Source: Pseudomonadota bacterium (GTDB lineage Bacteria; Pseudomonadota; Gammaproteobacteria; Burkholderiales; Thiobacillaceae). From it: a stretch of 8,949 nucleotides of DNA. Where the stretch lies: NCBI GenBank assembly GCA_021821425.1, contig JAKACL010000113.1, positions 1-8,949 on the forward strand. Reading direction: 5' to 3'. The notes beneath the pieces were generated by a model. It was not told the origin of the DNA, did not search any database, and saw only the letters and a program-made list of their open reading frames with translations. Below, piece after piece: positions 1-8,949 of this stretch (position 1 is its first letter; each line of letters opens with the position of its first letter). Position numbers and translations under genes: made by a program.

Positions 1-39
1 TACGACGCACCCAACCACTACGCCAGGGAAGACACATGA
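1..39 (+). CDS. 3' end of an upstream reading frame (partial, unidentified)
   Basis: Frame 1 is open from the window edge and gives about a dozen codons (ending ...HYAREDT) before a TGA at 37-39. That stop overlaps the ATG of the next gene in an ATGA arrangement, which is typical of translationally coupled genes in one operon. This overlap is the only reason to think the frame is real. Another frame is also open over the same bases, and too little sequence is visible to assign a function. Confidence 0.3.
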   Translation, partial: YDAPNHYAREDT

Positions 40-611
40 ACCACGCCACCACGCTCCTGATTGTCGTCTCAGCCGTATCGCTGCTTGCCTGTGGACCGTC
101 CGACACTGCAGCGCCATCTGCTACGGAGACAACCGTGGCCGACGGCGCGAAGACCACACCGGAGCTGGCGCCGCCGGTAATCGAGGCACCCGCCGTCGAG
201 CCGTTCACCGCCGAGCCGAGCGTGGCTCCTGACGCTGCCGAAGCCGCCCCGCAAACGCCGCCTGCGCCCGTCGCCGCGGCGCCCAGCACACCCGCTCCGG
301 TCCAACCCAAGCCGGCCGCGCCTGCAGCAGAACCCGCCGCCACGGCAGCCAGCGCGCCTGCGGGCGATCTCGCGCACGGCCAGCAGATCTACCGCCAGGC
401 CTGTGCGTTCTGTCATGACAAAGGGGTGGCGGGGGCGCCAAAAATCGGCGACGCCGCCAGCTGGGGGCCGCGTCTTGCACAGGGCATGGACGCACTCTAT
501 ACCTCCAGTCTGCGCGGCAAGGGCGCCATGCCGGCCAAGGGCGGCAACCCCGCATTGTCGGATGGCGACGTCAAGGCCGCAGTCGACTATATGGTCGCGC
601 AGGCGCGTTAA
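36..611 (+). CDS. Lipoprotein cytochrome c5-like monoheme protein with Pro/Ala-rich linker
   Basis: This is a 191-residue periplasmic electron carrier. It starts with a hydrophobic signal segment ending in a lipobox (LLAC, Cys19), so the protein is probably lipidated and held at a membrane. Residues about 25-108 form a low-complexity linker rich in Pro, Ala, Glu and Thr. The C-terminal 80 residues are a cytochrome c domain with heme motif CAFCH (Cys123, Cys126, His127) and a likely axial Met165 in GAMPAKGG, which is typical of the cytochrome c5/class I family. A GGGAA ribosome-binding site at 26-30 sits five bases before the ATG. The start overlaps an upstream stop, so the gene probably belongs to an operon that begins outside the window. 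The redox partner is unknown. The n-region of the signal is weakly charged, so lipidation is likely but not certain. Confidence 0.85.
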   Translation: MNHATTLLIVVSAVSLLACGPSDTAAPSATETTVADGAKTTPELAPPVIEAPAVEPFTAEPSVAPDAAEAAPQTPPAPVAAAPSTPAPVQPKPAAPAAEPAATAASAPAGDLAHGQQIYRQACAFCHDKGVAGAPKIGDAASWGPRLAQGMDALYTSSLRGKGAMPAKGGNPALSDGDVKAAVDYMVAQAR

Positions 612-619
612 GGTCCGGC

Positions 620-1354
620 ATGTCGCTCGTCTGCCCACAATGCGGGAGCGACAAGATTCGTAGCGGCACGCTGCATGCCCACAACGGGGTGCGCCGCATC
701 CTGCTTCACACCCCCTTGCGCTGCCGTTCCTGCAACCATCGCTTCTGGGTGTTCAATCCGATCAAGCCGCTGCTGCTGCTGACAAGCGTCGTGGTGCTGG
801 TCGGCTTCACCGCCTGGCTGGCCAGCGATCGCCACGCCGACCCATCGACGGGAGCCCTGCCCGATCATCTGCCCCACACCCGTGCCCAGCAGGGGGACCC
901 GGAAGCCCAATTGCAGATGGGCATGCGCTACGCCGAGGGCGACGGGGTGGTCCAGAACGACAGAGAGGCCGCCCGCTGGCTTGCGATGGCGGCCAAACAG
1001 GGCCTGGCCGAAGCGGAATACCAGTACGGACTCGCCCTGCTGCGCGGACGTGGCGTGGTACAGGACTACAAGGCCGCATTCAGCTGGATCGAAAAACCCG
1101 CGCTGCGCGGTTACGCGCGCGCGCAATACAGCCTGGGCGAACTTTATCGCTATGGCACCGGCACGGCGGTGGACAAGGCGCGCGCCTATCTCTGGTTCAA
1201 TCTCGCTGCCGCCCAGGGCGTGGACGCCGCCGCCAAGGCCCGCGACAGCCTGGTGTGGCAGTTGAAGCCCGAACAGATCGCGGCGATGCAGGAAGAGGCG
1301 CGGAAAATGAGCCTCGGCCCGTCTGCGCCCGCGGCCGGCCCCGCCACCCCCTGA
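620..1354 (+). CDS. Zinc-ribbon, single-TM, Sel1-repeat protein
   Basis: The protein has 244 residues and three parts. Residues 5-38 hold two CxxC pairs (Cys5/Cys8 and Cys35/Cys38) spaced like a zinc ribbon. Residues about 48-68 are one hydrophobic membrane segment. Residues about 85-200 contain three Sel1-like (SLR/TPR-type) repeats, each with alanine-rich helix pairs, a conserved glycine turn such as AAxxG, and YxxGxGVxxD-type motifs. A shorter helical tail follows, ending in a Pro/Ala stretch. The predicted topology puts the zinc ribbon in the cytoplasm and the repeats in the periplasm, which suggests a scaffold or assembly role, but no catalytic site is visible. It begins eight bases after the cytochrome gene, so the two are probably co-transcribed. 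The domain calls are firm; the function is unknown. Confidence 0.8.
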   Translation: MSLVCPQCGSDKIRSGTLHAHNGVRRILLHTPLRCRSCNHRFWVFNPIKPLLLLTSVVVLVGFTAWLASDRHADPSTGALPDHLPHTRAQQGDPEAQLQMGMRYAEGDGVVQNDREAARWLAMAAKQGLAEAEYQYGLALLRGRGVVQDYKAAFSWIEKPALRGYARAQYSLGELYRYGTGTAVDKARAYLWFNLAAAQGVDAAAKARDSLVWQLKPEQIAAMQEEARKMSLGPSAPAAGPATP

Positions 1355-1373
1355 TTTCTCGCCGCGCAGGGAG

Positions 1374-1422
1374 GCGCATGCGTTGTGGCCGCATGCACGT
1401 CCAGCGGCCACAACGCATGCGC
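1374..1422. repeat. Perfect 19-bp inverted repeat (hairpin) downstream of the Sel1 gene
   Basis: Arms 1374-1392 and 1404-1422 are exact reverse complements over 19 bases, separated by an 11-base loop (1393-1403). The arms contain GCATGCG and GTTGTGGCCGC. The motif GCATGC occurs three times (1376, 1391, 1415), so an alternative nested hairpin (1376-1382 with 1390-1396) can also form. It lies 20 bases after the Sel1 stop, where a terminator or mRNA-stabilising hairpin is expected. No T-run follows on either strand, so it is not a classic intrinsic terminator. A REP-like or MITE-like element is an alternative. Confidence 0.75.
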
Positions 1423-1590
1423 AGCCAGTTTCAGGCGGGCGTCTGCCGCCAGCGCCGCGACTTGCGCCTGCTATGCCTGCGCGCGTTCATCGAGCGCCAG
1501 CCGGCGCGTGAGCAGCACCTTACGAGATTGGCTTCCACCACGGGCGGCGAGGCGGGCTGACTCTTCCAGTGCCTGCGCGGCCCTATGCGC
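1404..1590 (-). pseudogene. Remnant resembling the C-terminal part of a TolC/CzcC outer-membrane efflux protein
   Basis: Read on the minus strand from 1590, the frame gives a helical, Ala/Arg/Leu-rich stretch with AQALEESARLAARGG, then LLTRRLALDERAQA, then an in-frame TAG at 1473-1471, then QAQVAALAADARLKLAAHALW. The spacing and composition resemble the last coiled-coil pair of TolC-family proteins, where the pattern is ALExAxxGY...LLxARRxLLxA...AxARLxL. There is no start codon, the stop interrupts it, and its 3' end runs into the 1374-1422 palindrome. I read it as an eroded fragment in a different frame from the neighbouring remnant. Family assignment is by eye only. Confidence 0.4.
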
Positions 1591-2029
1591 CTGTAACGAA
1601 GCTCAGCACCACCGTGAAACGCGCGGCGTTCTCCCGCTTCACCGCGACCGGACCGTTGGTACGCTTGAGCTGCGCCACCTGATCGAGGCTGATTTCGCGG
1701 CCCGCCGCCAGCGCCATGCGCAATTCGCCGAGCGTCACGCCGCGTGCGGCATTGCTGGCCGCCAGCTTCGATTTCAACCGCGCCTGCGTCAGGGCATTCT
1801 GCGCATATCCGCCAGGGCCAGGCATCGACAGGGTGACGAGCGAGGCGCCGTGTTTGACAGTGTTGCCGGCCTGCACGTGCCAGGCGGCATCGCCGTGCAC
1901 GCCCTGGTGCACATGCTGAAAACTCGCGTGATTCAGCTGAACCGCCCCGGCGTGCGCGTGGATGAACGGGCTATCGTCTGCAGCGCCACGAAGAACCCGA
2001 GCATCAGGAAGCGGAATGCGGCACGGTCA
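1583..2029 (-). pseudogene. Frame-broken remnant with RND (CzcA-like) and TolC-like segments
   Basis: The minus-strand frame is open from a stop near 2029 to a TAG at 1585-1583. Its only plausible start is a GTG at 1912 without a ribosome-binding site. The C-terminal part (GREISLDQVAQLKRTNGP, then VAVKREN and a hydrophobic strand) resembles the conserved periplasmic segment of CzcA/CusA-type RND pumps, where the pattern is VPLxxVAxVxxxxGPxxIxREN. An upstream piece (SLVTLSMPGPGGYAQ) looks like the TolC-family strand before the second helical repeat. Further upstream, a signal-like hydrophobic stretch (FLMLGFFVALQ) sits in another frame and would join the His-rich segment DDSPFIHAHAG by a one-base frameshift near 1980. 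I infer a collapsed heavy-metal efflux locus. A single short orphan gene at 1583-1912 is the alternative. Confidence 0.4.
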
Positions 2030-2118
2030 GGCGTGCCAAACGATAGCGTGGAAAATGACGTGTTAAGCAGGCGGTCCTGCCATCGTGGCAGGCGACGGGC
2101 GCATCCTGCCCATCGATC

Positions 2119-2135
2119 CTTAAGCCTGCCTTAAG
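2119..2135 (+). promoter_or_regulatory. PmrA/QseB-type response-regulator box upstream of the LtaS-type gene
   Basis: The sequence is CTTAAG-CCTGC-CTTAAG: two identical hexamers at 2119-2124 and 2130-2135, with an 11-base period and a 5-base spacer. This is the layout described for PmrA- and QseB-type OmpR-family regulators, which bind direct repeats of CTTAA-N5-CTTAA. It ends about 40 bases before the start codon. A weak -10 candidate (GATGCT, 2146-2151) begins 16 bases after the second hexamer starts, the same spacing as at the second box in this window (4053-4069). The cognate regulator is probably the one encoded at 5687-6355; that link is an inference. Confidence 0.7.
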
Positions 2136-2165
2136 TTCCGGATGCGATGCTCTCCTCTATTCAAT

Positions 2166-2170
2166 GAGGA
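2166..2170 (+). promoter_or_regulatory. Ribosome-binding site that decides the start of the LtaS-type gene
   Basis: GAGGA lies five bases upstream of the ATG at 2176. The earlier in-frame ATG at 2164 overlaps this site and has no purine-rich sequence before it, so the 2176 start is preferred. Confidence 0.7.
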
Positions 2171-2175
2171 CAGCC

Positions 2176-4068
2176 ATGTATCCCACGACCGTTACGCGCA
2201 TTCGATCCCTTGTCGCGCTGTATCCGCTGACCGCCTGGCTGGCGGCGGGTTTTCTGTTGCTGCACACGGGCCTGCGCGGCGTCCTGATGATGCAGACCTG
2301 GCATGCTGCACAGATGACATTTGCCTCGGCTATCAGCGTCTTCGGCACCGGGCTGGCGTTCGATCTGGTGACGCTCGCCCTGCTGCTGCCCGCCGTGCTG
2401 TTGCTGGAAAGCGCGCTCGGCACACGCAGGCAGCCCGGACGCCTGCGGCACGCAATGGCGTTGGCGGTTGCGGCGCTGACCCTCTTTGCGCTGGGTTTCG
2501 GCGTGCTGGCCGAATGGTTCTTCTGGGACGAGTTCGGCGTGCGCTTCAACTTCATCGCGGTCGACTATCTGGTCTATACGCAGGAAGTGGTCGGCAACAT
2601 CCGCGAGAGCTTCCCGGTCGGCACGCTGCTCGGCGGACTGGCCGCCGCCGCGGTAGCGCTGGTGTGGGCGAGCCGCAGTTGGCTGCTGCGTGCCACGGCA
2701 CCCGGCGCGCAACGGCGTACCCGTGTCGGCGTGTGGCTGGCAAGCGTGGCCGTGGCAGGCATGCTGGGATCGGCATGGTCGATGGATGCACGCCACGGCG
2801 CCAATGAATACCAGAAGGAGCTCTCCGCCAACGGGCTCTACAGCTTTGCCTATGCGTTCGGCAACAACGAGATCGACTATTTCGATTTTTACGCGACGCG
2901 CCCGCCGACCCCAGCCGCGCCGACCGTCGAACTTCCGCGCATCGTCTCGGCCACGCCGCCGAAAAACGTCGTCATTGTCACGATGGAAAGCCTGTCGTCG
3001 AGCTACATGGCGCATGGCGGCAATGTGCACAAGCTCACACCCAAGCTCGACCGACTGGCCGAGGAGGGCCTGTTCCTCGCCAACCTGCGCGCCACCGGCA
3101 ATCGCACCGTGCGAGGGCTGGAGGCGCTGTCGCTCGCGATCCCGCCGCTGCCCGGGCATTCGATCATCTGGCGCAAGCACAACCAGAACCTGGAAACGCT
3201 GGGCGCGGTGCTGGCCGACCACGGCTACGTCAACCGCTTCATGTACGGCGGCTACGCGCGCTTCGACAACATGGACGCCTATTTCGCGGGCAACCATTAC
3301 CAGCCGATCGACCGCAGCCAGTTCCCCGAACGGCATCGCGGCTTCGGCAACATCTGGGGCGTGGCCGACGAGCATCTGTACGACTACGCGCTGGAGCAGA
3401 TGGACCGCGACGCCGCCAGCGGCAAGCCCTTCCTGATGCATCTGATGACGACGTCGAACCACACGCCGTTCACGTTTCCAGAAGGCCGCATCGATCTGCC
3501 GCGCGGTCGCCAGGGCGCGGTGAAATATTCCGACTGGGCGGTGGGGCGCTTCATCGACATGGCGCGCACCAAACCCTGGTTCAAGGACACGGTGTTCGTG
3601 CTGGTGGCCGACCACTGCGCGTCAAGCAAGGGCCGCGTGAGCCTGCCGCCGGAGAACTATCACATCCCGGCGATCGTGTATTCGCCCGCGCATCTGAGCC
3701 CGCACACCGACACCCGGCTCGCCAGCCAGATCGACATCGTGCCCACCGTGCTCGATCTGCTCGGTTTCGCCGAGCACACGCGCTTCATGGGGCGCAGCGT
3801 GCTGCACGCCTATCCGGATGCCGGACGCGCCTTCATCGCCACCTATCAAAAACTGGGTTACCTGACGCCCGATCAACTGGTGGTGTTGAGCCCCGGGCGC
3901 CAGATCGAGGACTGGCAGCTTGATGCGCAACAGGAACTCGCCGCACCGGCGCCCCAGCCGGACACGCTGGCGGCACGCGCGATCGGCATCTATCAGGACA
4001 CCGCACGCCGCGCGCGCGATGGCCTGCTGCAGCACGTCAACCTGCCGAAGGCCTTAAGGATGCGCTAA
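2176..4068 (+). CDS. LtaS/OpgB-family sulfatase-fold membrane transferase
   Basis: This is a 630-residue inner-membrane enzyme. The N-terminal ~210 residues hold about five hydrophobic segments, followed by a periplasmic alkaline-phosphatase/sulfatase-fold domain (about 255-560). Residues matching the LtaS active site are visible: Glu271 in TMESLSSSYM (metal), Thr311 in GNRTVRG (nucleophile), His429 in TSNHTPF (substrate), and Asp479-His480 in VADHC (metal). Their spacing is close to that in lipoteichoic acid synthase. In Gram-negative bacteria this family includes OpgB, which moves phosphoglycerol from phosphatidylglycerol onto periplasmic glucans. The exact donor and acceptor here cannot be read from the sequence, and a phosphoethanolamine transferase is possible. 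A start at 2164 would add four residues. The upstream PmrA-type box suggests two-component control. The stop codon lies inside the second box, which serves the following operon. Confidence 0.85.
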   Translation: MYPTTVTRIRSLVALYPLTAWLAAGFLLLHTGLRGVLMMQTWHAAQMTFASAISVFGTGLAFDLVTLALLLPAVLLLESALGTRRQPGRLRHAMALAVAALTLFALGFGVLAEWFFWDEFGVRFNFIAVDYLVYTQEVVGNIRESFPVGTLLGGLAAAAVALVWASRSWLLRATAPGAQRRTRVGVWLASVAVAGMLGSAWSMDARHGANEYQKELSANGLYSFAYAFGNNEIDYFDFYATRPPTPAAPTVELPRIVSATPPKNVVIVTMESLSSSYMAHGGNVHKLTPKLDRLAEEGLFLANLRATGNRTVRGLEALSLAIPPLPGHSIIWRKHNQNLETLGAVLADHGYVNRFMYGGYARFDNMDAYFAGNHYQPIDRSQFPERHRGFGNIWGVADEHLYDYALEQMDRDAASGKPFLMHLMTTSNHTPFTFPEGRIDLPRGRQGAVKYSDWAVGRFIDMARTKPWFKDTVFVLVADHCASSKGRVSLPPENYHIPAIVYSPAHLSPHTDTRLASQIDIVPTVLDLLGFAEHTRFMGRSVLHAYPDAGRAFIATYQKLGYLTPDQLVVLSPGRQIEDWQLDAQQELAAPAPQPDTLAARAIGIYQDTARRARDGLLQHVNLPKALRMR

Positions 4069-4069
4069 G
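4053..4069 (+). promoter_or_regulatory. PmrA/QseB-type box upstream of the cytochrome b561 operon
   Basis: The sequence is CTTAAG-GATGC-GCTAAG: a perfect hexamer at 4053-4058 and a degenerate one at 4064-4069, again with an 11-base period. It overlaps the end of the preceding gene, whose TAA (4066-4068) lies inside the second hexamer. A -10 candidate TACAGT (4080-4085) begins 16 bases after the second hexamer starts. This gives a plausible autoregulated promoter for the operon that encodes the response regulator itself. Confidence 0.6.
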
Positions 4070-4115
4070 GACGCGTCGGTACAGTGGGTTCATCGCATCC
4101 CACAAGGAGCTCACC

Positions 4116-4739
4116 ATGTCGCAATCGAACATTCAATCCCGCCGCGTATACGACCCCTTGTTGCGAATCCTGCACTGGGCCATCGCCCTGTCCGTCGTTG
4201 CGCTGATCATCAGCAGTCAGCTTGCCGAAGCGTTCGAGGACGGCCCCTGGGAAAGCGCGGTCTGGAACCTGCACATCCTCGCCGGCTACGGCCTGACCGT
4301 GGCCTTGCTGACGCGCCTGCTGTGGGGCCTGGTCGGCCCCGCCAGCGCGCGCTGGCGCGACCTGTGGCACCCCGCGACGTGGAAGGCCAGCCTGAAGACC
4401 CTGCGCCTGCCGAGCGCGCATCGCGTCGGCCACGACCCCATCGCCAGCCTCGCCTATCTGTTTGCCTACGGCGTGATGGCGCTGATGGTCGTCACCGGCC
4501 TGGGGCTCGCCGCCAGCGAACTCAACACCGGTCCGCTCGCCGCCTGGCTGGGCAACGCCGGCTGGGTCGAAGACCTGACGGCAGACCCGCACGAATTCGG
4601 CTTTGTCTTGATGCTGGGCTTCGTCGGCCTGCACATGGCGGCGCTGGTGTTCCACCAGTTGCGCGGCGAACGCGTGGCGCAGAGCATGGTCACCGGCAAG
4701 CAATACCTCGATGCCAAGCCGGAGGTGCAGCATGATTAA
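4116..4739 (+). CDS. Cytochrome b561 (Ni-hydrogenase-type cytochrome b fold)
   Basis: This 207-residue integral membrane di-heme b cytochrome has four hydrophobic segments (about 18-38, 50-70, 110-130 and 160-182). Candidate heme-ligand histidines are His20 (ILHWAIAL), His53 (NLHILAGY), and His173 and His180 in the last helix (GLHMAALVFHQL). The N-terminal RVYDPLLRILHW is characteristic of the family. It most likely oxidises quinol and passes electrons to the periplasmic cytochromes encoded immediately downstream, as inferred for SHP/DHC clusters in other proteobacteria. A strong AAGGAG at 4104-4109 lies six bases before the ATG. The 3' end overlaps the next gene by eight bases. It is the first gene of the cluster and follows a putative response-regulator box. 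Confidence 0.9.
   Translation: MSQSNIQSRRVYDPLLRILHWAIALSVVALIISSQLAEAFEDGPWESAVWNLHILAGYGLTVALLTRLLWGLVGPASARWRDLWHPATWKASLKTLRLPSAHRVGHDPIASLAYLFAYGVMALMVVTGLGLAASELNTGPLAAWLGNAGWVEDLTADPHEFGFVLMLGFVGLHMAALVFHQLRGERVAQSMVTGKQYLDAKPEVQHD
4721..4725 (+). promoter_or_regulatory. Ribosome-binding site that decides the SHP start
   Basis: GGAGG lies inside the end of the cytochrome b561 gene, six bases before the ATG at 4732. It rules out the longer in-frame start at 4711, which would add a charged, cysteine-containing extension (MPSRRCS) before the signal peptide. Confidence 0.8.
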
Positions 4740-5133
4740 GCGGCTAGCAGGGGCAGGGCTGATGCTGCTGTCGGTCCACGCTGCGGCCGACAGCCCCGCA
4801 GGCTTGATGGTGCGCTACGCGCAGCAGGCCGGCGTGGCGATGACCGCACTGTCGTCCGCGCGCGGCGAAGCGCTCTACCGCAGCGAACATCCCGGAAAAA
4901 ACGGCGCCATGCAGAGCTGCGCCAGCTGTCACACCGCGAATCCGAAGCAGGCGGGACAGACTCGCGTCGGCAAGCGCATCGAGCCGCTGGCGCCGTCAGC
5001 GAATCCCCAGCGTTTCACCGATGCCGCCAAGGTCGAGAAATGGTTCCGTCGCAACTGCACCGACGTGCTCGCGCGCGAATGCAGCGCGCAGGAAAAGGGC
5101 GATTTCATCGCCTGGCTCAGCCAGATGAAATGA
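4732..5133 (+). CDS. shp: Sphaeroides heme protein (SHP), DUF1924 monoheme cytochrome c
   Basis: This is a 133-residue periplasmic cytochrome. A signal peptide (MIKRLAGAGLMLLSVHAAA) precedes a domain with a single CASCH heme site (Cys63, Cys66, His67). Near the C-terminus the motif FRRNC...EC gives Asn108, Cys109 and Cys117. In the SHP of Rhodobacter sphaeroides an asparagine is the displaceable sixth heme ligand and sits beside a cysteine in a short disulfide. The order and eight-residue Cys spacing here fit that arrangement. SHPs bind oxygen and nitric oxide in the reduced state and take electrons from DHC. Their cellular role is still unclear. The gene overlaps cytochrome b561 by eight bases and is ten bases from the DHC gene, so the three are surely one operon. 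Disulfide and ligand assignments are by pattern only. Confidence 0.85.
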   Translation: MIKRLAGAGLMLLSVHAAADSPAGLMVRYAQQAGVAMTALSSARGEALYRSEHPGKNGAMQSCASCHTANPKQAGQTRVGKRIEPLAPSANPQRFTDAAKVEKWFRRNCTDVLARECSAQEKGDFIAWLSQMK

Positions 5134-5143
5134 GGAGGACAGC

Positions 5144-5677
5144 ATGAACTATCTATTGCGCGGAATCGGGGTGCTGGCGACCGTCGGCACGCTCAGCCTG
5201 CTGGCATTTTCGCTGCCCTCGGGCGGCGAGGCGCGCGGCGACAGCGGCGGCGACGACCTGATGCCGCGACTTACCCACAAAAACTGGCAGCAGGAATGCG
5301 CCAGCTGCCATCTGGCCTATTCGCCCGCGCTGCTGCCGCGCGCATCGTGGCGGCGCGTGATGGGCGGTCTCGAGCAGCACTTCGGCGAAAACGCCAGCCT
5401 TGATCCGGCCACCCAGGCTGATATCCTGCGTTTTCTCGAAGCCAACGCCGCCGACAGCGGCACCAGCCGGATGGGCGATAAGGTGATGCAGCGCATGGAC
5501 ACGAAGGCAGCGCCGCTGCGCATCACCGAAACCCGCTGGTTCGTGAGGAAGCACGACGAGGTGCCGCGTACCGCCTGGGCACGCAAGTCGGTGGGCTCGG
5601 CCGCCAACTGCGCGGTGTGCCACCAGCAGGCGGAAAAGGGCGTATTCGACGAGGACACGGTCAGGATTCCCAAATGA
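5144..5677 (+). CDS. dhc: Diheme cytochrome c (DHC)
   Basis: This 177-residue periplasmic diheme cytochrome is the usual electron donor to SHP. A hydrophobic N-terminal segment (about 4-24) is a signal peptide or anchor. Heme site 1 is CASCH (Cys52, Cys55, His56), followed by the family-typical LAYSPALLPRASWRRVM stretch and a helix DILRFLEANAAD. Heme site 2 is CAVCH (Cys156, Cys159, His160) near the C-terminus, in the context SAANCAVCHQQAEKG. The layout of an N-terminal domain carrying one heme and a C-terminal heme close to the end matches the DHC family. GGAGG at 5134-5138 lies five bases before the ATG. Its place between SHP and the response regulator matches SHP clusters known elsewhere. 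Confidence 0.9.
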   Translation: MNYLLRGIGVLATVGTLSLLAFSLPSGGEARGDSGGDDLMPRLTHKNWQQECASCHLAYSPALLPRASWRRVMGGLEQHFGENASLDPATQADILRFLEANAADSGTSRMGDKVMQRMDTKAAPLRITETRWFVRKHDEVPRTAWARKSVGSAANCAVCHQQAEKGVFDEDTVRIPK

Positions 5678-5686
5678 AACGACGCG

Positions 5687-6355
5687 ATGCGCATCCTGCT
5701 GGTTGAAGACGACCGCCTGCTCGGCGACGGCCTCAAGGCCGGGCTGACGCAGGCCGGCTACGCGGTCGACTGGCTGCGCGACGGCGAGGCGGCAGTGGCC
5801 GCCCTGTCCACCGAAGCCTTTGCCGCGGTGGTGCTCGACCTGGGGTTGCCGAAGCGCGACGGGCTGTCGGTGCTGCAATGGCTGCGCGGCCGCCACGACG
5901 CGACACCGGTGCTGATTCTCACCGCGCGCGACCAGCTGGAAGACAAGGTGCGCGGGCTCGATCTCGGTGCCGACGATTATGTGCTGAAGCCCTTCGACCT
6001 GGACGAGATCGCCGCCCGCCTGCGCGCCCTGGTGCGGCGAGCCCACGGCCGCCCGGAGCCGGTGCTGACGCTGGGCGATGTCGAGCTCAACCCGGCGGCG
6101 CGCACGGTGACGCGTGCCGGCGAAGCCGTCGACCTGACCCCGCGCGAATTCGATCTGCTGCATCTGCTGCTGGAAAACGCCGAGCGGGTGCTGACCCGGC
6201 GCACGCTGGAAGAGCAGCTCTATACCTGGAACGATGCGGTCGACAGCAATGCGCTCGAAGTTCACATCCATCACCTGCGCAAGAAGCTCGGCAACGAACT
6301 GATCCGCACCGTGCGCGGCGTCGGCTACGTGGCCTCGGCGTCCTCGCAGACGTGA
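5687..6355 (+). CDS. OmpR/PhoB-family response regulator (QseB/PmrA-like)
   Basis: This 222-residue cytoplasmic transcription regulator has a receiver domain at residues 1-115 with acidic pocket Glu7-Asp8-Asp9, phosphoacceptor Asp51, Thr79 and Lys101. A winged-helix DNA-binding domain occupies about 125-218, with LTPREFDLLHLL, then SNALEVHIHHLRKKL as recognition helix, then the TVRGVGYV wing. The overall sequence is closest by eye to the QseB/PmrA branch, whose binding sites are CTTAAG-like 11-bp direct repeats. Two such sites occur in this window. No convincing ribosome-binding site precedes the ATG, which lies nine bases after the DHC stop, so translational coupling is likely. Its stop overlaps the kinase start (GTGA). 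Confidence 0.93.
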   Translation: MRILLVEDDRLLGDGLKAGLTQAGYAVDWLRDGEAAVAALSTEAFAAVVLDLGLPKRDGLSVLQWLRGRHDATPVLILTARDQLEDKVRGLDLGADDYVLKPFDLDEIAARLRALVRRAHGRPEPVLTLGDVELNPAARTVTRAGEAVDLTPREFDLLHLLLENAERVLTRRTLEEQLYTWNDAVDSNALEVHIHHLRKKLGNELIRTVRGVGYVASASSQT

Positions 6356-7725
6356 GCGGCACCCCCGCCTACTCGCTGCGCCGCCGGCTGGTATGGCTGC
6401 TGACCAGCGCCGTGGCCGTGATCTGGCTGCTCTCCACGCTGGTGGTCTACCAGCGCGCCCATCACGAGGCCGACGAACTGCTCGACAACCAGCTAACGCA
6501 GGTGGGCGAAACCTTGCTTGCCATCGTGGCCGGCGGCGAGGTCGAGCATTTTGTGAAGGAACTGCACGAGCACGCCCGGCACTCCCCGGTGCCGATCGCA
6601 TTCGAGATCTGGCTCGACAAGGATGAGCGGACCCGGCTGCTGGTGACGTCACCCGGGCACAGTGGGTTCGGGACGGTCACGGAAACCGGCTTCAGCGAGC
6701 ATCCGTACCAGGGGAAACGCTGGCGTTTTTATGCAGTGCAGGACGACGAGGGGGAATACCGCGTGGTGGTCGGCCAGTCCCGTGCCGCACGCGAACGGAT
6801 GGCGCGCGAAATCGGCCTGTCGCTGCTGCTGCCGGCGATCCTGGCGCTGCCGCTGATGGCACTGTCTGTATGGTGGGTCGTCGGTCGCGCACTGCGGCCG
6901 GTGGACGCGGTGGCGCGGCAGGTCGGGTCGCTCGATGCGCAGGCGCTGGCGCCGCTCGACGAAACGGCCCGGCTCCCGGACGAGATCGCGCCGCTGCGCA
7001 CCGCACTCAATGCGCTGATCCGGCGCGTCAGGGACGCCTTCGACAACGAACGCCGCTTCACAGCCGACGCGGCGCACGAATTGCGCACCCCGCTGGCGGC
7101 CCTGAAAGTGCAGGCGCAGGTGGCGCTGCGTGCCCAGGCAGACGACAGCCGGCAGCACGCGCTGAGCCAGGTGATCGCCGGGGTCGACCGCATGACGCAC
7201 CTGGTCGAACAGCTGCTCACGCTCGCGCGCGTCGACCCGGCCAGCCAGGGTGCGGCACCGCCTCCGATTGACCCGGCGTGCACGGTGACCGCGGTCTGCG
7301 CCGAATTGCTGCCGCTCGCGCGTCAGCGCAATCAAAACCTGGCGGTCGATGTGGCAGAAGGGTGTACGGTGGCAGTCAGCGCCGCCTGGCTGCAGATTGC
7401 GGTACGCAATCTGCTCGACAATGCGCTGCGCTACGCGGGTGAGGGCGCGCAGATCGCGGTGCGCTTCGCGCGAGCCGGATCAGTCTGCACGCTCAGCGTC
7501 GCGGATGACGGTCCGGGGGTGTCGCCCGACCTGCGTGCGCAACTCAGCGCGCGCTTCGTGCGCGGCGAGGTCGAGGGTGACGGCTGCGGGCTCGGGCTCT
7601 CCATCGTCGCCCGCATTGCCGCGCTGTCGCATGCCCGGCTGGAACTGGGTGAGGGTCTCCCGCGCGCGGCCGGAGGCTATGGCTTCAGGGCCACCCTCCA
7701 CTTCGCCGCCACCCCGGCCGCCTGA
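6352..7725 (+). CDS. Sensor histidine kinase (QseC-like)
   Basis: This 457-residue inner-membrane kinase is the partner of the preceding regulator. It is read from a GTG that overlaps the regulator's TGA. The open frame extends much further upstream, but only inside the regulator gene, so this start is chosen. TM1 spans about 13-33 and TM2 about 154-176, enclosing a periplasmic sensor of roughly 120 residues of the QseC/2CSK type. A linker follows, then the H-box FTADAAHELRTPLAAL with His242, the N-box NLLDNALRYAG (Asn353, Asn357), the G1 box DDGPG (from Asp385) and the G2 box GCGLGLSI (411-418). All catalytic parts are present. No heme or metal motif is seen in the sensor, so the signal is unknown. 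Its operon suggests redox state, oxygen or nitric oxide. It ends seven bases from a convergent gene with no terminator between them. Confidence 0.93.
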   Translation: MSGTPAYSLRRRLVWLLTSAVAVIWLLSTLVVYQRAHHEADELLDNQLTQVGETLLAIVAGGEVEHFVKELHEHARHSPVPIAFEIWLDKDERTRLLVTSPGHSGFGTVTETGFSEHPYQGKRWRFYAVQDDEGEYRVVVGQSRAARERMAREIGLSLLLPAILALPLMALSVWWVVGRALRPVDAVARQVGSLDAQALAPLDETARLPDEIAPLRTALNALIRRVRDAFDNERRFTADAAHELRTPLAALKVQAQVALRAQADDSRQHALSQVIAGVDRMTHLVEQLLTLARVDPASQGAAPPPIDPACTVTAVCAELLPLARQRNQNLAVDVAEGCTVAVSAAWLQIAVRNLLDNALRYAGEGAQIAVRFARAGSVCTLSVADDGPGVSPDLRAQLSARFVRGEVEGDGCGLGLSIVARIAALSHARLELGEGLPRAAGGYGFRATLHFAATPAA

Positions 7726-7732
7726 GCCGGTC

Positions 7733-8068
7733 TTACTTGCCGGGTCCGGGACCCATGCCGCTGCCCGGTCCCATGCCGGGCCCCATCCCTGGGCCCATGC
7801 CGGGCCCCCGACCCGCAGGGGGCATCTCGGGCAGGGTCTTGCCCTGCGCCTTGGCGCGTTCCTGCATTTTCTTGTGGTGTTCCAGCCGGAGGGCTTCGCG
7901 CTCCTGCTCGGTCTTGGCGGCGCGCATGCGATCCTGGTATTCGTTACGCTCCTGCGGGCTCATCAACTCGTATCCATACGCCCGCTCCTGCATCATGTGG
8001 TGGTCGGCCTGCACCGGGAAGGCGAGCGCCGCGCAAAGGGAAAGCGCCAACAAGGACAGCTGTCTCAT
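7733..8068 (-). CDS. Small secreted protein with Gly-Pro-Met repeat tail
   Basis: The gene encodes about 111 residues. A signal peptide (cleavage near VQA|DHH) leads into a short charged helical region with LMSPQERNEYQDRMRAAKT and EHHKKMQERAKAQG, rich in Glu, Arg, His and Met. A C-terminal tail is built from repeated GPGM units and ends in Lys. Similar small periplasmic proteins of unknown function with MxPQERxEYxxRMRxAKT motifs are common in betaproteobacteria; this is from memory, not from a search. The His/Met content and the neighbouring copper genes make metal binding conceivable, and a Spy/CpxP-like chaperone is another idea. AGGAG at 8075-8079 lies three bases before one ATG (8071) and six before the next (8068); the second has the better spacing. 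It converges on the histidine kinase gene. Confidence 0.75.
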   Translation of the reverse strand: MRQLSLLALSLCAALAFPVQADHHMMQERAYGYELMSPQERNEYQDRMRAAKTEQEREALRLEHHKKMQERAKAQGKTLPEMPPAGRGPGMGPGMGPGMGPGSGMGPGPGK

Positions 8069-8129
8069 CATGATCTCCTGAGTGACGGGGCCCCGGCAGC
8101 AGGTGTCGCGCCGGGGGGAGCCTTCTGTT

Positions 8130-8191
8130 TAGGGCGTGTTAACGCTAATTTCGCGGCAACGCGGACGCGAAATTAGTGTTAACACGCCCTA
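8130..8191. repeat. 62-bp near-perfect palindrome bounded by TA (possible minimal MITE)
   Basis: Arms 8130-8155 and 8166-8191 are 26 bases each and complementary except at one position, 8144/8177, which would be a G-U pair in plus-strand RNA. The loop is ten bases (8156-8165). The arm begins TAGGGCGTGTTAAC and ends AATTTCGCG, and is more AT-rich than its surroundings. The ends read TA on both sides, as a TA target duplication would, but because TA is its own complement this cannot be separated from the palindrome itself. No T-run follows on either strand. It lies between two minus-strand genes, downstream of the CusF-like gene and about 60 bases upstream of the small secreted-protein gene, and could also affect their transcripts. 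Confidence 0.8.
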
Positions 8192-8224
8192 GTACAAAAA
8201 TGCCGCCTGTCCAAACCTTCCTGT

Positions 8225-8264
8225 CGGTTTTCGCTGCGCGCGGGCCGGGCCCGCACAGAAACCG
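8225..8264 (-). terminator. GC-rich hairpin after the CusF-like gene (possible terminator)
   Basis: A perfect inner stem (GCGGGC at 8240-8245 with GCCCGC at 8249-8254, three-base loop) is flanked by a second complementary pair (CGGTTT at 8225-8230 with AAACCG at 8259-8264). It directly follows the stop of the minus-strand CusF-like gene. There is no T-run downstream on the minus strand, so intrinsic termination is only a possibility. Confidence 0.35.
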
Positions 8265-8576
8265 CTATGGCGCCGGCTGGATCGCCGTCACCGTGTAGGC
8301 GCCCTCGATTTCCTCGGCACGGAATTTCACCTTGTCGCCGACCTTGAGTCCCTGCAGCAGCGCGGGCGGTTTCGCCTTGAACACCATGGTCATGCCGGGC
8401 ATGTCGAGGTTGGAGATGGGGCCATGCCTAAGAGTGAGTTTGGCGTTGGCCGTGTCGATCTTGCGCACTTCGCCGTCGCTCATTGCGGCGGCCTCGGCGG
8501 CAGGGGGCGTCGCGGGTTCGGCGTGAAGCGGGGGGCCAAACGCCAGTGCGGCCAGCAGGGGGATCCAGTTTTTCAT
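8265..8576 (-). CDS. CusF-like periplasmic copper-binding protein
   Basis: This 103-residue protein has a signal peptide (cleavage near LHA|EPA), an Ala/Pro-rich linker, and a CusF-type OB-fold from about residue 35 (GEVRKIDTANAKLTLRHGP). Copper-site candidates are His51, Met62 and Met64 in DMPGMTMVF. They correspond in spacing to His36, Met47 and Met49 of E. coli CusF. At the place of CusF Trp44, which caps the copper, this protein has Met59. A LKVGDKVKF motif follows, typical of the family. The role is periplasmic Cu(I)/Ag(I) binding or delivery. An AGGAG at 8584-8588 precedes the ATG by seven bases, and the start overlaps the cupredoxin stop as ATGA, so the two are one operon. Confidence 0.88.
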   Translation of the reverse strand: MKNWIPLLAALAFGPPLHAEPATPPAAEAAAMSDGEVRKIDTANAKLTLRHGPISNLDMPGMTMVFKAKPPALLQGLKVGDKVKFRAEEIEGAYTVTAIQPAP

Positions 8577-8949
8577 AGTGCAGCTCCTTGTTGCGGGGTG
8601 ACGGTGACGGTGCCGCGCATGCCGGCTTCGTAGTGGCCTGCGATCAGGCAGGCGAATTCAAAGCGGCCGGCGCGGTTGAACTGCCAGACGATTTCGCCGG
8701 TCTGGCCGGGTTCTACATGGACCATGTAGGGCGCGTCGTGTTCCATGTTGGGAAACTTGGCCATCAGGGCGGCATGCTTGGCCAGTTCGGCGGGCGTCCC
8801 GATGACCATTTCGTGCAGCATAAGGCCGCGATTCCTGACCACAAAACGCACCGTGTCGCCTTCCCGGACGGTTAGCTGATCGGGTATGAAACGCATGGCG
8901 TCGGTCATGTCGATCGTGACTGTACGGGTGACCTGCGCGGGCGCGCCCG
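8573..8949 (-). CDS. Cupredoxin (type 1 copper protein), 5' end outside the window
   Basis: The minus-strand frame is open to the window edge. The visible part is about 124 residues and includes residues upstream of the first in-window ATG (8908) that already look like the first strand of the fold (QVTRTVTIDMTD). The true start and signal peptide therefore lie outside. Type 1 copper ligands are visible as the His in LMLHEMVIG and the Cys, His and Met in FACLIAGHYEAGM. The stretch between, with AELAKHAALMAKFPNMEHDAPYMV written over two strands, is typical of cupredoxins found in copper-resistance clusters. It is periplasmic and may store, carry or oxidise copper. It overlaps the CusF-like gene by ATGA, which strengthens a copper-homeostasis role for both. 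Confidence 0.88.
   Translation of the reverse strand, partial: GAPAQVTRTVTIDMTDAMRFIPDQLTVREGDTVRFVVRNRGLMLHEMVIGTPAELAKHAALMAKFPNMEHDAPYMVHVEPGQTGEIVWQFNRAGRFEFACLIAGHYEAGMRGTVTVTPQQGAAL

Follow-up and report, generated by a model that had tools for sequence, protein, structure and literature searches.

The PmrA box of enteric bacteria is described as two hexamers arranged head to tail and 5 bp apart, reading CTTAAG and XTTAAT in Salmonella and CTTAAT and CCTAAG in Klebsiella (PMC3973317). In Salmonella, PreA (QseB) is reported to activate strongly STM1253, which is annotated as cytochrome b561 and also listed as PmrA-regulated (PMC2653508), thereby providing a precedent for b561 under QseB-type control. 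SHP operons combine CytB, the sphaeroides haem protein (SHP) and DHC with a kinase/regulator pair of the QseC type (SK2); SHP is presented as unique among known c-type haem proteins in binding oxygen, its role being unsettled (Meyer et al. 2010, PMC2909971). The stretch of DNA analysed here, called the window, comprises 8,949 nucleotides (nt), positions 1-8,949 of the forward strand of contig JAKACL010000113.1 (assembly GCA_021821425.1), from a Pseudomonadota bacterium (GTDB Gammaproteobacteria; Burkholderiales; Thiobacillaceae). It contains the operon b561-SHP-DHC-regulator-kinase (4116-7725, plus strand) and two paired repeats of PmrA/QseB form, box 1 (2119-2135) and box 2 (4053-4069). Sequence comparison suggests, with a probability of roughly 0.8, that the QseB/PmrA-type regulator of the operon (5687-6355) acts on both boxes as its operators, box 1 being used in two directions, with an RND efflux operon as its main target in relatives.

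Box 2 (CTTAAG-N5-GCTAAG, plus strand) is the predicted operator of the SHP operon and overlaps the stop codon (TAA, 4066-4068) of an LtaS-type sulfatase gene. Box 1 (CTTAAG-N5-CTTAAG), a predicted palindromic operator, lies between the LtaS-type gene on the plus strand and the scar of an RND operon on the minus strand. A scan of all 8949 bases for CTTAAG-N5-CTTAAG with at most three mismatches yields three matches, with 0.56 expected and 2 of 200 shuffles reaching three. Box 1 has no mismatch, box 2 has two, and the third match (4042-4058, three mismatches) overlaps box 2. The sequence-only reading of this DNA, which had reported both pairs and no other, is thus borne out apart from that overlapping site. 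It had also placed a -10 candidate 16 bases after the second hexamer in both cases, which holds when counted from the start of that hexamer, leaving a gap of 10 nt between box and -10. These candidates are GATGCT (2146-2151, plus strand), a poor match to TATAAT, for the LtaS-type gene, and TACAGT (4080-4085, plus strand) for the b561 operon. Since CTTAAG is palindromic, box 1 can be read in both directions, and a third candidate, CAGGAT (2103-2108, minus strand), stands 10 nt from it on the other side as the -10 of a divergent RND promoter; absent from the sequence-only reading, it is the box 1 -10 conserved in relatives. The window therefore displays CTTAAG/CTTAAT-related hexamers 5 bp apart, together with a fixed 10-nt spacer to the -10. 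PhoB-type activators work from a box that ends 10 nt ahead of the -10 and replaces the -35 element.

The gene set of the operon is identical to that of the SK2 SHP operon of Meyer et al. 2010, comprising cytochrome b561 (4116-4739; PF01292, 115 bits), an SHP-type cytochrome c (DUF1924; 4732-5133, start codon picked by eye; PF09086, 136 bits when translated from 4711), the dihaem cytochrome c DHC (5144-5677; PF09626, 147 bits), the response regulator (PF00072, PF00486) and a sensor kinase with a 2CSK_N domain (6352-7725), all on the plus strand. In the parts of that account available to us, an operator, further targets and an RND link are not mentioned (PMC2909971). The regulator is nearest to QseB (272 of 345 cut-off bits; NF007663), then to PmrA (251 of 330; NF007928), in agreement with the branch assigned to it by eye, and its best match in the Protein Data Bank (PDB) is BasR (PmrA), at 184 bits. 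The kinase is nearest to QseC, likewise below the equivalog cut-off. At the positions of the PmrA DNA-contact residues K153, R171, T187, N188, H193, H195, R198 and R210 the window regulator carries R, R, S, N, H, H, R and R, six identical and two conservative, which suggests PmrA-like recognition. The PmrA/QseB form that had been read in the boxes is supported. H193 and H195 are the likely specificity determinants of PmrA according to a docking model (PMC3973317). The locus thus resembles QseBC/PreAB in its nearest regulator and kinase models and in the b561-annotated target of Salmonella, but both proteins fall below the equivalog cut-offs, and no ygiW or mdaB product is present among the ten window proteins scanned. 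It shares with the enteric PmrA (BasR) regulon the form of the box and the occurrence of ArnT-like targets in other genomes (PMT domain in L249, Arnt_C in L428); unlike that regulon, its main targets are the b561-SHP-DHC chain and an RND pump, its kinase is QseC-like and its regulator does not reach the PmrA cut-off.

Conservation of box 2 was followed in the best 80 of 373 DHC-bearing genome loci (set 1). Nearly all of the 33 Thiobacillus-type loci (L001-L033) share the operon order, as do many others, for instance in Methylotenera and Sulfuricella, and Thiobacillus is the name given to several of the closest DHC relatives. The box is positioned about 44-60 nt from the extrapolated b561 start. 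From 58 loci considered, 52 sites entered a matrix; the other six were left out since the segment set by the extrapolated start did not include the box, their boxes being seen otherwise. In this matrix TTAA and TAAG are invariant, and 51 sites retain the G of TTAAG. A -10 with A at position 2 and T at position 6 lies exactly 10 nt from the box in 52/52, taking the form TAnnnT in all 28 Thiobacillus-type sites and retaining A2 and T6 in all 24 more distant ones. The pattern TTAAG-N7-TAAG-N10-nAnnnT occurs upstream of the SHP operon in 60 of the 64 testable loci with a nearby regulator at least 53% identical to that of the window, and in 62 when one deviation is allowed; the remaining two are L074 and L051, whose contig lacks the operon head. 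None of the 11 loci without such a regulator matches upstream of the SHP operon. Five loci stand outside this test: in four the contig lacks the operon head, and one shows no SHP match. Box 2 also occurs where b561 has no sulfatase upstream, in relatives ranging from Thiobacillus to Methylotenera and Sulfuricella. In L001, box 2 is present and a pump fragment is kept beside b561, in a genome with no close pump or sulfatase. Conservation, proposed by the sequence-only reading as a check, is therefore found for box 2 across many Betaproteobacteria.

Box 1 had been taken for a promoter element of the LtaS-type gene, a view that the relatives do not support in that simple form. In 21 of 21 relatives with an RND operon in the locus, the minus-strand reading of box 1 is followed after 10 nt by a -10, which is CAGGAT in 19, CATGAT in one and CAGAAT in one. 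On that side most of them carry downstream genes for a small His-rich protein, for an adaptor of CusB/CzcB type and for a pump of CusA/CzcA type; in L027 the pump scores 1067 bits with TIGR00914 (cut-off 701) and the adaptor 135 bits with TIGR01730 (cut-off 95). Seven of the 21 loci (L002-L006, L009, L027) have the sulfatase across the box, and the CTTAAG pair is intact in all seven; it also precedes the RND operon in all 14 relatives without a linked sulfatase. A pump at least 75% identical is found in 26 of the 33 Thiobacillus-type genomes, with the exact promoter pattern in 24 and one box base changed in a 25th (G020). Among the seven genomes without a close pump, the box occurs only in G027, before its own 61% identical pump; the 61% identical pumps of G007, and the second ones of G010 and G024, show no box in the stretch searched. 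In relatives, the comparisons indicate, box 1 is above all the operator of the divergent heavy-metal-type (CusA/CzcA) RND operon, and a sulfatase-only promoter box is rejected on this minus-strand conservation.

In the window, the RND operon is reduced to a scar by several deletions. The minus strand of 1589-2019 retains pieces of three RND genes, with neither adaptor nor pump intact. The small His-rich, apparently exported protein, the first RND gene in most relatives, persists at 1866-2019 in two frames (tblastn 65% and 47%), collinear with L005 DNA from 1866 on. Residues 87-131 of the L027 adaptor correspond to 1742-1879 (80% identity), and residues 775-819 of its pump to 1589-1723 (76% identity), both collinear with L005 DNA. 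Relative to L005, deletions of about 0.5-1.7 kb separate the collinear stretches, and three of the four junctions show a few bases in common. The open reading frame (ORF) of the scar (P0121) has a 98% homologue in four contigs, possibly not independent samples, and a one-off assembly artefact is therefore less likely. The LtaS-type gene is the sole intact gene adjoining box 1 in the window. Compared with CusA/CzcA operons of the heavy-metal efflux (HME) type, the RND operon of relatives is here predicted under a PmrA/QseB-type box, and the window holds fragments of it.

Genome-wide counts were taken in relatives' genomes, with the reversed pattern as control. They give a divided answer to the scan that the sequence-only reading had proposed: the plain box does not exceed its control, an outcome that bears on one of the refuting conditions which that reading had named, but once the -10 is included the sites are few and mostly at promoters. 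In the 33 Thiobacillus-type genomes the promoter pattern with its -10 matches 68 times, against 9 for the control; by hand assignment, 32 matches precede b561, 25 an RND operon, five ArnT-like or PAP2 genes (in four genomes), one a sulfatase and five others, one of these a PepSY_2 protein. ArnT-like glycosyltransferases with such a box occur in L087, L097, L248 and L249, all from Thiobacillus-type genomes, with a PAP2-type gene across the box in L087, L097 and L249 (Pfam for L249, by eye for the rest). In five of 28 more distant genomes, where neighbourhoods were inspected for part of 50 matches and many of these have no assigned target, the box precedes an RND adaptor or outer-membrane component (G036, G044 and G051 by Pfam, G042 and G053 by eye). 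Six of these 28 had been chosen for an SHP-neighbour regulator of another class or not found, and four of them have no match. A stricter pattern in 39 further genomes matches 49 times, against 2 for the control, 16 matches being SHP operons. Of the 33 other sites, 11, in as many genomes, precede an adaptor and pump; the rest lie at b561-like genes (L410 and L422, with L431 judged so by eye), at ArnT (L428, Arnt_C), at a gene resembling DHC (L406), at a sulfatase (L429), at proteases of DegQ type (L401, L414) and at a further regulator (L423), with 13 sites lacking an assigned target. In L404, L408 and L409 the box precedes a small His-rich, apparently exported protein that has no Pfam match.

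The form of the operator follows the class of the nearby regulator. In set 1, all eight SHP-neighbour regulators lacking His195 go with TTCAG-N6-TTCAG, which keeps the 11-bp period; the TTCAG pair shows no mismatch in L067, L070, L072, L073, L076 and L077 (F193, G/A195) and L079 (Y193, R195), and one in L080 (F193, A195). L075, for which no regulator was found, likewise shows a single mismatch, and a hybrid form occurs in L078 (Y193, H195). A second set of 68 loci from 300 genomes of one order (set 2) was searched for pairs with at most one mismatch within 250 nt, where shuffles give 0.4% for each motif. Regulators with His195 accompany TTAAG in 36/42 loci and TTCAG in 2/42, those without it TTAAG in 0/5 and TTCAG in 3/5, and loci with no regulator found nearby TTAAG in 8/21 and TTCAG in 1/21. 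The same TTCAG-N6-TTCAG pair, with its 11-bp period, is observed in L352, whose regulator lacks His195, and in L361, with no regulator in the stretch searched. Residue 193 is not supported as a base switch, since TTAAG is found with each of H, Y, F and N193; residue 195 is a candidate, resting on one deep split in the regulator tree.

From the observed conservation, spacing and gene linkage across genomes, together with the operator co-variation and the scar, we infer binding, activation, two-way use of box 1 and a signal, as follows. The QseC-type kinase would phosphorylate the regulator, which as a dimer would occupy both half-sites in head-to-tail orientation. Given the 10-nt gap to the -10, the bound regulator would take the place of the -35 element and bring in RNA polymerase. 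The b561-SHP-DHC-regulator-kinase operon would be driven, and autoregulated, from box 2, while box 1 would act as a two-way palindromic operator, probably also used by the LtaS-type gene on its other side in some relatives and in the window. The physiological signal may be envelope, metal or amine stress.

Several observations weigh against this assignment. Many loci are closely related, so the counts are not independent, and the His195 and non-His195 classes form one deep split, so that their co-variation counts as a single evolutionary contrast. The regulator reaches neither the QseB nor the PmrA equivalog cut-off and is filed as a relative of both. The 26th genome with a close pump, G022 (89%), shows no box in the 3 kb searched, and in L063, one of the 11 set-1 negatives, a 209-aa ORF lying further upstream is preceded by a box. 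In set 2, 6/42 His195 loci lack a good box, and the 8/21 loci noted above have one without a nearby regulator. A count of plain boxes (at most one mismatch, no -10) over 12 genomes gives 26, and the reversed pattern gives 43; the 50 matches in the 28 distant genomes compare with 17 for the control, two of the six without a QseB-type operon regulator have three matches between them, and 10/39 further genomes have none. Regulator paralogues of 44-55% identity occur in 10/14 genomes searched, one with its own box.

The part played by the LtaS-type gene invites an alternative, in which box 1 serves the RND operon only, the LtaS-type gene adjoins it by chance and the box of the window is a deletion relic. 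The box with its minus-strand -10 in 14 loci lacking a linked sulfatase would fit this, as would the poor plus-side GATGCT and 14 sulfatase homologues in other genomes (45-54% identity, L106-L119), for which the locus scan reports no box. The gene shares box 1 in 7/33 close relatives. A plus-strand nAnnCT is present in all eight sulfatase-linked loci (window included, and related to each other), against 1/14 RND loci without a linked sulfatase. In an independent case (G230, L429), a sulfatase 39% identical over 561 aligned positions has its own CTTAAG-N5-CTTAAG 25 nt before the ORF start. Box 1 of the window is itself intact despite the lost RND operon, although that loss may be recent. Service to the RND operon only is accordingly a possible but doubtful account, and the sulfatase is likely, by these comparisons, a regulon member, by a link weaker than that of the RND operon. 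The single regulon of electron transfer and envelope-polymer modification proposed by the sequence-only reading is thus partly supported: it finds support at the SHP operon box, its sulfatase part being limited to those seven relatives and L429.

It is improbable, at perhaps one chance in eight, that another OmpR-family regulator, whether PmrA proper or a metal regulator of the CusR/CzcR kind, mainly binds the boxes. The paralogues and the boxes at SHP loci with no regulator found nearby speak for such a protein. One of these paralogues (G006:C2, L085), a second PmrA-type regulator 55% identical to that of the window, has a CTTAAG triple repeat with 11-bp spacing before its gene. In G003, G004, G005 and G016, however, the window-type regulator is the sole match at E<=1e-45, and b561 and RND boxes are both present; operator type, moreover, follows regulator class. 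Binding by the co-encoded QseB/PmrA-type regulator is therefore the likely case. That the repeats arose by chance, or are kept on other grounds, for instance because they fall in coding sequence at the 3' end of the sulfatase gene, is very unlikely. The overlap of box 2 with the stop codon and the unrestricted box counts would accord with such an origin, but box 2 is kept where no sulfatase precedes b561, and with the -10 included the matches exceed the control by 68 to 9 and 49 to 2; chance is judged very unlikely from these counts and the window scan.

The LtaS-type enzyme itself (634 aa, 2164-4068, plus strand; PF00884, 147 bits) has an N-terminal half that is hydrophobic by eye. Among solved structures it is nearest to 3lxq (uncharacterised VP1736), then weakly to LtaP/LtaS. 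It has the PF00884 domain in common with LtaS/OpgB-type phosphoglycerol transferases, but lies far below both equivalog cut-offs (LtaS 54.9/970 bits, OpgB-type 57.3/574). Elsewhere in the window, cytochrome c and Sel1-repeat genes occupy 36-1354, and two long intergenic inverted repeats are seen by eye at about 8130-8192 and 1378-1422. A CusF-like copper-binding protein (PF11604) and a cupredoxin-like ORF (by eye) lie near the operon on the minus strand (8265-8908), a possible copper theme.

The SHP/RND/QseBC regulon is well supported in silico, and no description of it was found in the open-licence literature searched, as far as the available parts of those sources extend. The predicted shared operator ties the SHP operon to an efflux pump of metal type and, in some cases, to enzymes that modify lipid A or a polymer, giving a testable context of envelope-stress defence. 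It predicts targets for QseBC-type systems of environmental bacteria, and it offers natural regulator/operator pairs in which the half-site shifts from TTAAG to TTCAG. A betaproteobacterial envelope-defence regulon is a tentative extension, more speculative than the operator assignment: QseBC-type sensing of a periplasmic toxicant, metal- or amine-like, would use a single type of operator to call up a quinol-to-SHP haem chain that oxidatively modifies the toxicant, an RND pump of HME type for its export and, in certain lineages, enzymes altering the envelope polymer or lipid A surface. If true, the shift from TTAAG to TTCAG with regulator residue 195 would be a natural base-specificity code, and the envelope-defence regulon would give SHP a defined physiological context.

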